Shown piece after piece: positions 5,327 to 21,914 of a stretch of DNA of 32,634 nt. Source of the DNA: a virus. The position numbers were made by a program, and so were the translations under genes. The DNA is taken from positions 1 through 32,634 of the IMG/VR virus record IMGVR_UViG_3300037502_003531. One strand, given 5' to 3'. Positions within the stretch are counted from its first letter, which is position 1; every line of letters begins with the position of its first letter. A model generated the notes under the pieces. That model worked only from the letters and a program-made list of their open reading frames with translations. It was not told the origin of the DNA and did not search any database.

Positions 5327-7167
5327 TCATTTTTCCTCCCTTCTAGGTTTGCTCTTAATCCTCCATCATATTCTAACTCTTGTTTAGTTACATAAAATTG
5401 TCCAACCTTATTGATACCCAGTTTTTGAAATTCTGGTACAGTAATTAGATCAGCTAATATTAATGCTGGATTACCTCGCCAATCCAAAGACACATCTCGC
5501 TTAGGGTCAGCAAAGGAACCTTTAAGTTTATCAGCTATCTTCTGAGCCATTTCTTTAGTTTGAATCAGATGATTTATAGGAAGAGTATAATCTATCTTTC
5601 CATTCTCAGTTATACTCCTATCATCTTGTGAATATACTCTTTCTGCTCCTTTTACTTTTAAAGGCTTACCTTCAAGTATTAACTTGAAAGTATCTTGGCT
5701 AGTTCCACTGTTGCTAATCTCAATTTCAGCATTACAAGCATAATAATTAGCATGAGTAATTGAAGTGTTCACTGTATTATTCTCCAAGTGAGCTGTAACT
5801 TCTATAGCTGGTTTCTCTGAATACTCAGCATTAATAGTGATAGTCTCAGCTGCTCCAATTGTTCTAACTTCACTAGTAGAAAAAACTTCTTCTAACCCAT
5901 CAGATAATACAAGAGGTTGAGTTTCTACTATTATATAATTTGCTACACTAGACGAATCAGCAGGTTGATTCTTTGTAAAATAATCATCTGCTGTTATTTC
6001 ATATAATCCTGTGGGGATAATCAGTTTCAATGACCTAACAGTCATTTCTGTTTGACCTAACATATCACTTGTTACATTAGCTATAATATAAGGTCTAATA
6101 TTCGCAGAACCTTTTACTACCATATTAGCTGAGACTTCTCTTATTCTAGTAGAAGCAAGGGTTATTGTAGCATTACCTGTTATCATTTCAAACATATGAC
6201 CTGTAATTTTCTGTATTTCTGTGGTCATAATTCCACTAGATAATATATTAGCAGAAGAATTTTTTAGTCTAGCAGAATTGATTGATATTATGGCACTAGC
6301 TGAAAAATCAGCAGAAGCTTCAATATAATTAGTTATACTTCTACCATAAATATAGACATTATTATCATATGAAGCAGCGTAAAGGTAATCATTATCAGCA
6401 TAAACAGAGTAAATATAACCTGTTGCATCTGTTAACTTAGTTACTAATGTAAGATCTCTTCTGTCATAGATATATATATTCTTATCATGGGCTCCAGCAT
6501 AAATATAATTGCTATCAACATATATAGAATAAATATAACCAACTGGATCTGTTAAAGTAGTTATTAAGGTCAAATTTGTTTTATTATAGACATAGATTTT
6601 ATCACTGGAACCGGCATAAATATAATCACTATCAGCATAGACAGACCGAATAATATTATTTGCATCAGTGAAGGTAGTTACTAATGTAAAATCTATTCTA
6701 TCATAGATATATAACTTATTATCACGTGAGCCAGCATAAATATAATTACTATCAGTATAGACAGAAAAAATAAAATCATTTGTATCAGTTAATATAGTTA
6801 TTAAGGTTAAATCTGCTCTATCATAAATACATATTCCATTATATGAACCAGCATAAATATAATCTTCATTAACATAAATAGAATAAACAATTCCACTTAC
6901 ATCAGTTAATGTAGTTATTAAAGTCAAATTTATTCTATCATAAATACATATTCCATTATATGAGCTAACATAAATATAATCGCTATCAGCATAAACAGAA
7001 TAAATATAACCAACTGGATCTGTTAACTTGGTTATTGGTGTAAGGCTTGTTTTATCATAAATATAAATTTCATTCTGTGAACCAGCATAAACATAATCAC
7101 TATCAGCATAAACAGAATAAAGATGATTACTTGTAGCTGTTAATGTAGTACTTAGATCAAAAGACAA
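5323..7167 (-). CDS. Tail-tip protein with N-terminal seven-bladed propeller and tail-hub-like C terminus
   Basis: 614 residues in three parts. Residues about 16-285 hold seven repeats of 38-40 residues, each with a core S-V/I-Y-x-D-x-D/N-Y-I/V-Y-A-G-S ... I-Y-D/N-x-x-x-L-T-L-I/V-T-x-L-T-D, which should form a seven-bladed beta-propeller. Residues about 286-385 are a low-complexity beta-type stretch rich in S, A, T and I. Residues about 385-614 look like the distal part of a siphovirus tail-hub protein (ITADDYF, NYIIVET, AQKIADKL, a long beta region, then VGQFYVTKQELEYDGGL). The 403-residue gene upstream ends where such a protein would continue, so this looks like the second half of a split tail-tip protein. 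Start is TTG, 9 nt after GGAGG. Confidence 0.7.
   Translation of the reverse strand: MSFDLSTTLTATSNHLYSVYADSDYVYAGSQNEIYIYDKTSLTPITKLTDPVGYIYSVYADSDYIYVSSYNGICIYDRINLTLITTLTDVSGIVYSIYVNEDYIYAGSYNGICIYDRADLTLITILTDTNDFIFSVYTDSNYIYAGSRDNKLYIYDRIDFTLVTTFTDANNIIRSVYADSDYIYAGSSDKIYVYNKTNLTLITTLTDPVGYIYSIYVDSNYIYAGAHDKNIYIYDRRDLTLVTKLTDATGYIYSVYADNDYLYAASYDNNVYIYGRSITNYIEASADFSASAIISINSARLKNSSANILSSGIMTTEIQKITGHMFEMITGNATITLASTRIREVSANMVVKGSANIRPYIIANVTSDMLGQTEMTVRSLKLIIPTGLYEITADDYFTKNQPADSSSVANYIIVETQPLVLSDGLEEVFSTSEVRTIGAAETITINAEYSEKPAIEVTAHLENNTVNTSITHANYYACNAEIEISNSGTSQDTFKLILEGKPLKVKGAERVYSQDDRSITENGKIDYTLPINHLIQTKEMAQKIADKLKGSFADPKRDVSLDWRGNPALILADLITVPEFQKLGINKVGQFYVTKQELEYDGGLRANLEGRKNE
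6318..7125 (-). repeat. Seven tandem propeller repeats, about 117 bp each
   Basis: Seven in-frame repeats of about 114-120 bp encode the blades of the propeller domain. Several blades share long stretches of near-identical DNA (the segments encoding DSDYIYAGS and NGICIYDR), indicating recent internal duplication. Confidence 0.85.
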
Positions 7168-20399: not shown

Positions 20400-20789
20400 C
20401 TAATCCGGCCTTCTTTGAGCAAATTGCTCAATTATATTGATATTTTCTTGCTTTTTTTCAGCAGGTAACAAGTCTGTTAACTGCTTCATAACTGAACTAT
20501 GTCTATTAATTAGCGAAATATAAGTTTTAACCTCATCAGATTGCTTAGTACCATATTGATTTTCACCATTCTTATACTCACTAATAACTCCATTCTCATT
20601 AATCGCAACTTGTAGATCTTCTAAAGTGATAGTCATAAATGCAGCATTTTCAATAAGAGAATTAGCCACCTGCATCTTCTTCTCATCTAGCTCTAAATCT
20701 TTAAAAATCTTTTTTAATCTATTTATCTCAACTTTAACCCTTTTATCTTTTTCTAAAAATTGCTTTTTCTTAGCTATTGCCTTAGCCAT
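20400..20789 (-). CDS. terS: Terminase small subunit, P27-like
   Basis: About 129 residues, helical and Lys-rich, with KVEINRLKKIFKDLELDEKKMQVANSLIENAAF-type pattern (shown in part) and the closing Q-F-A-Q-R-R-P. P27-type small terminases bind the packaging start site and regulate the large subunit. Position directly before terL (12 bp) supports the call. I start at the ATG at 20789 because GAGGGGGGTG precedes it; in-frame codons up to 20837 lie in the putative cos region. Confidence 0.82.
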   Translation of the reverse strand: MAKAIAKKKQFLEKDKRVKVEINRLKKIFKDLELDEKKMQVANSLIENAAFMTITLEDLQVAINENGVISEYKNGENQYGTKQSDEVKTYISLINRHSSVMKQLTDLLPAEKKQENINIIEQFAQRRPD

Positions 20790-20854
20790 ATACCACACCC
20801 CCCTCGCGTGCGACTTGTGTATTAATTGTGTGTCCACTCTACGGTCTCCTAATA

Positions 20855-20891: not shown

Positions 20892-21212
20892 TTATCGCTT
20901 AGGAACTAACTCCCCAAACTCATTAAACTTTAATCCTTCTCTAGTCACCTTAGCTTGATTAACTCCATGACCATCATGTTTATCATGACACTCTTTACAC
21001 TCATACTTGAGTTTATCCCAATTCAAAGTGATCTCTGGATCATTAATATTCTCTTGTGTTAAATGCTCTGTATGATGAACTATATATCCTGGAGTATATC
21101 TTCCTTTCTCTAAGCAAGTCTCACACAATCCATTGACACTCTGAATATAACCTTCTCTACAATCCTTCCATGCTTTAGAATTATAAAAAGGTTTAGCCCA
21201 AGGTTTAGCCAT
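20892..21212 (-). CDS. HNH endonuclease of the packaging module
   Basis: 106 residues. Zinc-binding pairs CETC and CKECH frame the HNH core: IVHHTEHL supplies the histidines, LNWDKLKYECKECHDKHDG the Asn and the last His. Phage HNH proteins next to terminase genes work with TerL for specific cutting at cos and are needed for DNA packaging in several phages. It is the first gene of the late operon, 16 bp after a terminator hairpin, with GAGGTGATAAG before its ATG. Confidence 0.88.
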   Translation of the reverse strand: MAKPWAKPFYNSKAWKDCREGYIQSVNGLCETCLEKGRYTPGYIVHHTEHLTQENINDPEITLNWDKLKYECKECHDKHDGHGVNQAKVTREGLKFNEFGELVPKR

Positions 21213-21227
21213 CTTATCACCTCAATT

Positions 21228-21256
21228 AAAAAAACACCCAGCTTCTGCCGAGTGTT
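21228..21256 (-). terminator. Strong terminator in the late leader, upstream of the HNH gene
   Basis: On the minus strand AACACTCGGC-AGAA-GCTGGGTGTT forms a 10-bp stem (two G-T pairs) followed by TTTTTTAATT. It lies about 45 nt downstream of the predicted late transcription start and directly before the first late gene. It can end early transcripts, but late transcripts must pass it. Confidence 0.85.
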
Positions 21257-21306
21257 AGTCTATATTTGTCATATATTTAATTGTGAACTCAATATTACTT
21301 ATAATC

Positions 21307-21373
21307 ATTATAGCACAGATTTTAAATTATTTATTTCAACTTCATTCCAAAACCATTCCACATTTATTCCACA
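21307..21373 (-). promoter_or_regulatory. Late promoter with four phased activator repeats
   Basis: Minus strand, reading to lower coordinates: four copies of an 8-bp element (TGTGGAAT, TGTGGAAT, TTTGGAAT, GTTGAAAT; + strand positions 21366, 21355, 21344, 21333) at an exact 11-bp period, then an extended -10 TGCTATAAT (21315-21307). No -35 box is present at 17 bp; the last repeat occupies that place. This fits a promoter that depends on an activator, most likely the ArpU/RinA-like protein encoded just upstream. Confidence 0.7.
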
Positions 21374-21835
21374 TCAAATTATACTCACTATTTCTCTATA
21401 AAGTGAGTACAATCCTTTCTCCTCTAATAACTCTAAAGCCTTACTTTTTCTTCGATGCATAGTAGTATGACTAATAGCCAATTCAGTTTCTATCATCTCA
21501 TTCTTATAATTCTTCAAATATTTGAATTCAATCACCTTAGCCATCTCTTTACCAAACTCTGGATCCTCTTCTTTTAATTCTTCTATATCATCTTTGATTA
21601 TCTTCATCAATTCATCTGCTCTATTAGCTCTTCTAAGTAAATCATCTTTGATAACAGCATTACTCTCTACTTGCCCTCCTCCATAACAAATAGCACTCAA
21701 TCTTCCTGGAATAATATCAGCAGCTTTATATCCAGACTTTATACCATCGTTAATTGTACAAGCTCTTCTTCTTAACCTCTTACTAGCTCTCTTTAAATCT
21801 CTGTATAAATACAATACCTTCTCTACTTGCTTCAC
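21374..21835 (-). CDS. ArpU/RinA-like late transcription activator
   Basis: 153 residues, helical. The N-terminal part (LYRDLKRASKRLRRRACTIND) and the C-terminal helix-turn-helix (KVIEFKYLKNYKNEMIETELAISHTTMHRRKSKALE, abbreviated) are like the sigma-70 region 4-type domain of ArpU, RinA and related phage late regulators. RinA is known to activate the promoter upstream of the terminase genes. The gene ends next to a repeat-rich extended -10 promoter that faces the terminase genes, so its role here is well supported by context. The start is GTG after GGAGGCGGGG. Confidence 0.85.
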   Translation of the reverse strand: MKQVEKVLYLYRDLKRASKRLRRRACTINDGIKSGYKAADIIPGRLSAICYGGGQVESNAVIKDDLLRRANRADELMKIIKDDIEELKEEDPEFGKEMAKVIEFKYLKNYKNEMIETELAISHTTMHRRKSKALELLEEKGLYSLYREIVSII

Positions 21836-21914
21836 TTTACCCCGCCTCCCTCATATGGTATAATGAAACGGAGACGGGTGCCCATGCCTGTCCTTTTTTT
21901 ATTTATTGAGCAAA

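Follow-up and report, generated by a model that had tools for sequence, protein, structure and literature searches.

A probable late-transcription activator of the RinA/Alt/Ltr kind and its candidate operator array of 11-bp-spaced repeats in a viral DNA sequence

The IMG/VR virus record IMGVR_UViG_3300037502_003531 (positions 1 to 32,634; this whole stretch of 32,634 nucleotides is called the window below) carries on its minus strand a gene for a 153-residue regulator related to RinA and ArpU, followed at once by an array of direct repeats and an extended −10 element. The minus-strand sequence at the 3′ flank of the gene is TGATGTGGAATAAATGTGGAATGGTTTTGGAATGAAGTTGAAATAAATAATTTAAAATCTGTGCTATAAT (21376-21307), and it contains four 8-bp units that start at 21373, 21362, 21351, and 21340 and are spaced by exactly 11 bp, with unit 1 abutting the TGA of the regulator gene (Table 1). 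An initial annotation of this DNA had described four repeats with an exact 11-bp period at the late promoter, an extended −10 element given as TGCTATAAT, and an ArpU/RinA-like gene ending at 21374, and our own reading of the sequence agrees with it on all three counts. In 300 dinucleotide shuffles of a 150-bp stretch, scored at every period from 8 to 22, no four-copy array as good as this one appeared. The annotation had also placed the last repeat where a −35 box should be, and this was not borne out: the TTGAAA of unit 4 (21339-21334) sits 21 bp, not 17 bp, from TATAAT, and we found no −35 element at the 17-bp spacing, where the sequence is AATAAA. Late transcription is predicted to start near 21300. 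When a sigma-dependent pause element was sought, a second TATAA-like run was seen after TATAAT in the window and its family, in a very AT-rich region.

Table 1. Features of the regulator locus and its surroundings in the window
Feature	Position	Strand	Basis
Repeat unit 1, TGTGGAAT	21366-21373	−	sequence
Repeat unit 2, TGTGGAAT	21355-21362	−	sequence
Repeat unit 3, TTTGGAAT	21344-21351	−	sequence
Repeat unit 4, GTTGAAAT, nearest the promoter (about −40 to −33), at the wrong spacing for a −35 box	21333-21340	−	sequence
Extended −10, TGTGC-TATAAT (TRTGn type)	21307-21317	−	sequence; same element in all close relatives
RinA/ArpU-like late regulator, 153 aa, C-terminal sigma-region-4-like helix-turn-helix	21374-21835	−	phrog profile matches, predicted fold
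Intrinsic-terminator-like hairpin and U tract just before first late gene, about +45 to +75	21226-21256	−	prediction; RNA fold
HNH endonuclease, first late gene	20892-21212	−	phrog_119, E=1.5e-19
Probable small terminase subunit	20400-20837	−	phrog_1066, 3.1e-31 (function not given); phrog_5110 terminase small subunit, 6.6e-5
616-aa ORF in terminase large-subunit position	after probable small terminase gene		assigned by position alone
Promoter-like site in antisense (TTTACC-17-TATAAT) that overlaps the ribosome-binding region of the regulator	21836-21864	+	conserved in relatives
Terminator-like hairpin directly downstream of antisense promoter	21873-21899	+	sequence prediction

Taken alone, the array is weak and is not listed by Tandem Repeats Finder; it is conservation in relatives that decides its reality. 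Close relatives of the regulator (65-97% identity) were found in virus contigs, in Orenia metallireducens, in Halonatronum saccharophilum, and in other genomes of the same order, and they fall into five distinct groups (the window with L002 and L016; L003 with L004; L005; L017; L019). All five groups have four to six units with an exact 11-bp period directly after the regulator gene, so that the array the initial annotation expected downstream of homologous genes is present in every close relative. The downstream spacing is equally constant: 26 bp separate the TG of the last unit (unit 4 in the window) from the −10 hexamer in all close family members, and the element that follows is TRTGn-TATAAT (TATACT in L017). 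By eye, no array was seen at L018, a far more distant match in the same order (E 2.5e-6).

The letters of the units vary among these relatives, with TGGAAT, TGGCAG, and TGAAGT all represented and six copies of TGAAGT in L005, and the predicted recognition helix of the regulator tracks this variation. SHTT is found with TGGAAT, SERT with TGGCAG, and SD(S/A)T with TGAAGT (three loci). A similar relation appears in a held-out set of staphylococcal RinA proteins, where the common form has the helix SDRT with TTGGCAG and GTGGCAG, while a variant with about 93% identity pairs SEST with TTGACAG and ATGACAG, the same base having changed in both copies. TGGCAG units at 11 bp also accompany SDRT, TERT, or SERT regulators of other groups (L043, L127, L238). 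These pairings fit Arg with G and Ser or Ala with A at unit base 3, which hints at a code but does not prove one. A Mantel-type test of helix against unit similarity over 34 loci was significant by permutation.

The regulator itself matches phrog_36 (E=8.9e-8), phrog_248 (5.2e-5), and phrog_79, labeled “Q-like” (1.4e-4), matches that indicate a remote family relation. It also has a match to the NCBIfam sigma70-ECF model (2.6e-4) that is weak and below the cut-off. Pfam gave no match for the 153-aa protein, searching solved structures by sequence yielded nothing of use, and tblastn in 50,697 phage records returned no match. With 8 close sequences as input, AlphaFold2 gave a poor model (pLDDT 50.7), and we used the one obtained with 42 diverse relatives (pLDDT 87.5). 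The C-terminal part of that model resembles region 4 of sigma-E bound to −35 DNA (Foldseek: 2h27, TMt 0.74, prob 0.99, E ~0.9).

We surveyed 105 non-redundant loci of phrog_36, phrog_248, and ArpU-like regulators, of which 104 could be scored; some are mutually related, and the counts are thus not fully independent. For a strong array we required three copies, with 20 or more matches out of 21, lying between −70 and +90 relative to the regulator stop. Such arrays were found in 30 of the 104 loci, 14 at period 10 and 16 at period 11, and at these periods there were none in either control region or in shuffles. Two further readings at period 22 probably represent a doubled period. Exact 6-mer repeats at 10 bp (9 loci) or 11 bp (13 loci) occurred among the remaining 74 loci, against 1-2 in controls. 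The last unit lies mostly 26-28 bp from the −10 element at period 11 and 18-21 bp from it at period 10, and 25 of the 30 strong-array loci have a TGn extended −10. For L041, our search found no relatives.

We read the regulator and the repeats, with the conservation, spacing, unit-helix co-change, and DNA-binding-domain fold that we computed, as a late-transcription activator of the RinA/Alt/Ltr kind and its operator array, and we put the probability of this reading at roughly 0.85. The source would be a temperate-type phage or a prophage whose host, as the relatives suggest, is a halophile of the Halanaerobiia. In the mechanism we propose, several copies of the regulator, which has a predicted sigma-region-4-like helix-turn-helix, would bind the four units along a single face of the helix, the proximal copy sitting at about −40 to −33. 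The bound regulator could then hold or activate RNA polymerase at this promoter, whose extended −10 is good but which lacks a usable −35, so that the HNH, terminase, and structural genes would be expressed only after the regulator had accumulated. That the array is the binding site of the regulator had been the claim of the initial annotation, and as an operator array it is supported by the relatives. The further claim that sites of this regulator class are rarely known is not supported: repeat arrays at late promoters are already published for TP901-1 Alt and phi13 Ltr (PMC13123087), and two units 11 bp apart lie downstream of phi11 rinA. What is new here is the survey, with its two period classes, fixed placement, unit-helix changes, and recurring terminator-like hairpin.

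Several observations weigh against this reading. The Foldseek E-values against solved structures do not reach significance. In the Mantel-type test, 101 of 300 random sets of other protein columns matched the performance of the helix; the test is therefore unspecific, so that the helix-unit correspondence rests on the selected natural variants. Finally, 52 of the 104 loci have no array by the criteria used; some of these are probably not late regulators, and some have damaged or misread frames.

The strongest alternative is that the regulator is, wholly or additionally, a Q-like antiterminator that loads onto polymerase at the repeat-bearing promoter and enables it to pass a leader terminator and later ones. 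In lambda, the Q gene is followed by its own late promoter pR′, the terminator tR′, and the late genes, and the order of regulator, promoter, terminator, and late genes at our locus is the same. The leader hairpin of the window, AACACTCGGC-AGAA-GCTGGGTGTT-TTTTT (21256-21226; stem-loop 21256-21233), has a predicted energy of −15.6 kcal/mol and a z of −5.9, and a search of this leader against Rfam gave no relevant RNA family. Sense-strand terminator-like hairpins lie at +20 to +300 in 39 of 52 array loci, the window type included, with a median energy of −14.8 and a median of 54 nt to the next start; the control counts were 6/52 on the antisense strand, 3/52 for upstream stretches, 6/51 for stretches farther downstream, and 0-1 for shuffles. 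Such hairpins also stand between late promoter and late genes in phi11 and phi13, and one with a T-rich tail, missed by our detector and found by inspection, precedes terS in TP901-1. Further intrinsic-terminator-like hairpins between late genes of the window (15381-15354, 4689-4672, and 3888-3869, minus strand), each shortly before the next gene, would be obstacles to a long late transcript if polymerase did not read through them. The “Q-like” phrog_79 match, weak as it is, points the same way, as does the sigma-region-4 fold of 21Q, which binds direct repeats (PMC6606751).

However, 21Q has its subsites in the interval from −35 to −10 (substitutions at −21 and −13; PMC6606751), whereas the units of the window lie upstream of about −33, and no 21Q structure is among the 50 structural matches listed. 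The leader hairpin is imperfect in L004, and that of L005 has one mismatch and a weak T tract. In addition, a predicted hairpin could merely end early transcripts or be leaky, and we found no published case of antitermination by this family in the literature searched. The published phi13 P23 reporter extends 50 bp past the start (PMC13123087). With the start placed near 4067 in L052, by our own count, it takes in the hairpin and some of the U tract, and it may for this reason not separate activation from antitermination. We consider antitermination possible and, on balance, unlikely. A still slightly more doubtful proposal is the general one that the RinA, ArpU, and Ltr late “activators” of Gram-positive phages are activator and processive antiterminator in one, forming a phased, sigma-region-4-like row on 10- or 11-bp arrays, starting at an extended −10, and passing the late-gene terminator.

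It is far less probable that the repeats are bound by some other protein, for example a phage repressor or a host factor, and merely adjoin the regulator gene. The binding of regulator to units is here a prediction, which leaves room for such a protein, but in two separate families the unit letters vary together with the recognition helix that the neighbouring gene encodes, and arrays recur beside this gene family and not in control regions. That the array is chance or low-complexity AT-rich sequence is hardly credible: Tandem Repeats Finder misses it, and at this composition 0.74 matches to a loose two-unit pattern are expected by chance, the only ones in the window being these copies, but the shuffles never reproduced it and period and spacing are kept in relatives despite different letters.

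The antisense unit at the regulator start codon (21836-21899, plus strand) is kept in L003, L004, L005, L017, L018, and L019. It consists of a TTTACCC-rich −35 region and an extended −10, followed nearly at once by a hairpin with a T run, and it would give an RNA of about 30-60 nt. Of 101 regulator genes, 11 have a similar antisense extended −10 with terminator, TP901-1 alt among them. In the late leader of L004, the hairpin motif CACTC(G/A)GCAGAAGCT occurs twice (3573 and 4103), as if the intervening stretch had been inserted. Between the late promoter and terS, L004 (3640-4060) and L005 (3690-4010) also have a layout like that of a type I toxin-antitoxin system, with a strong sigma70-type promoter and, on the other strand, a ribosome-binding site and a short hydrophobic peptide; none was seen in the short leader of the window. 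Elsewhere in the window, a tandem repeat of about 117 bp (6339-7121, 6.6 copies) within a late gene for a 614-aa protein encodes YIYAGS/SVYADSDY motifs, and we would guess that the product is probably a beta-propeller-like tail or fibre protein.

If our reading of an activator and its operator is right, sequence would directly give the DNA sites of this large family of regulators, few of which are mapped, since the sites are found at the very end of the regulator's own gene, or just after it, with a period of 10 or 11 bp. The natural variants suggest a simple helix-to-base correspondence (Arg-G; Ser/Ala-A at base 3) that swaps could test, and the recurrent terminator-like hairpin makes the assumption of pure activation directly testable against antitermination. 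The terminator-like hairpin between promoter and late genes had been missed by the initial annotation, as had the conserved antisense promoter-terminator unit.

Among known systems, phage 21 Q and lambda Q share with the window the order of regulator gene, own late promoter, terminator (predicted in the window), and late genes, but the Q binding element lies between −35 and −10 in both 21Q and lambda (PMC6606751), a feature the window lacks, with its units at about −73 to −33. In Staphylococcus phi13, where deleting the Ltr (family IV) repeats abolishes P23 activity (PMC13123087), a hairpin likewise follows the late start. The phi13 repeats (L052, 3960-4025) have an 18-bp period, outside the 10- and 11-bp classes, so helical phasing is not universal among these regulators. 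The RinA/terS promoter of Staphylococcus phi11 has the gene order of the window: TTGGCAG and GTGGCAG stand 11 bp apart after rinA, followed by an AT-rich −10, a terminator-like hairpin, and terS. The phi11 RinA helix SDRT resembles the SERT of the Orenia relative, and the TGGCAG unit is common to both; phi11 differs from the window in having only two clear copies, of TGGCAG and not TGGAAT. TP901-1 has, like the window, a small regulator gene directly upstream of the late promoter, and its record shows CACGAAA units 11 bp apart after alt and the hairpin before terS in the same order, although the repeat letters are others and the leader is about 500 bp long. The four imperfect direct repeats of TP901-1 Alt at −76 to −32 before the late promoter (PMC13123087) span 45 bp, a length consistent with an 11-bp period. 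The window shares with the RinA/ArpU/Alt/Ltr activators a set of about four imperfect direct repeats before a late promoter, and the window order of 153-aa regulator, promoter, HNH, and terminase matches the activator features listed in PMC13123087.
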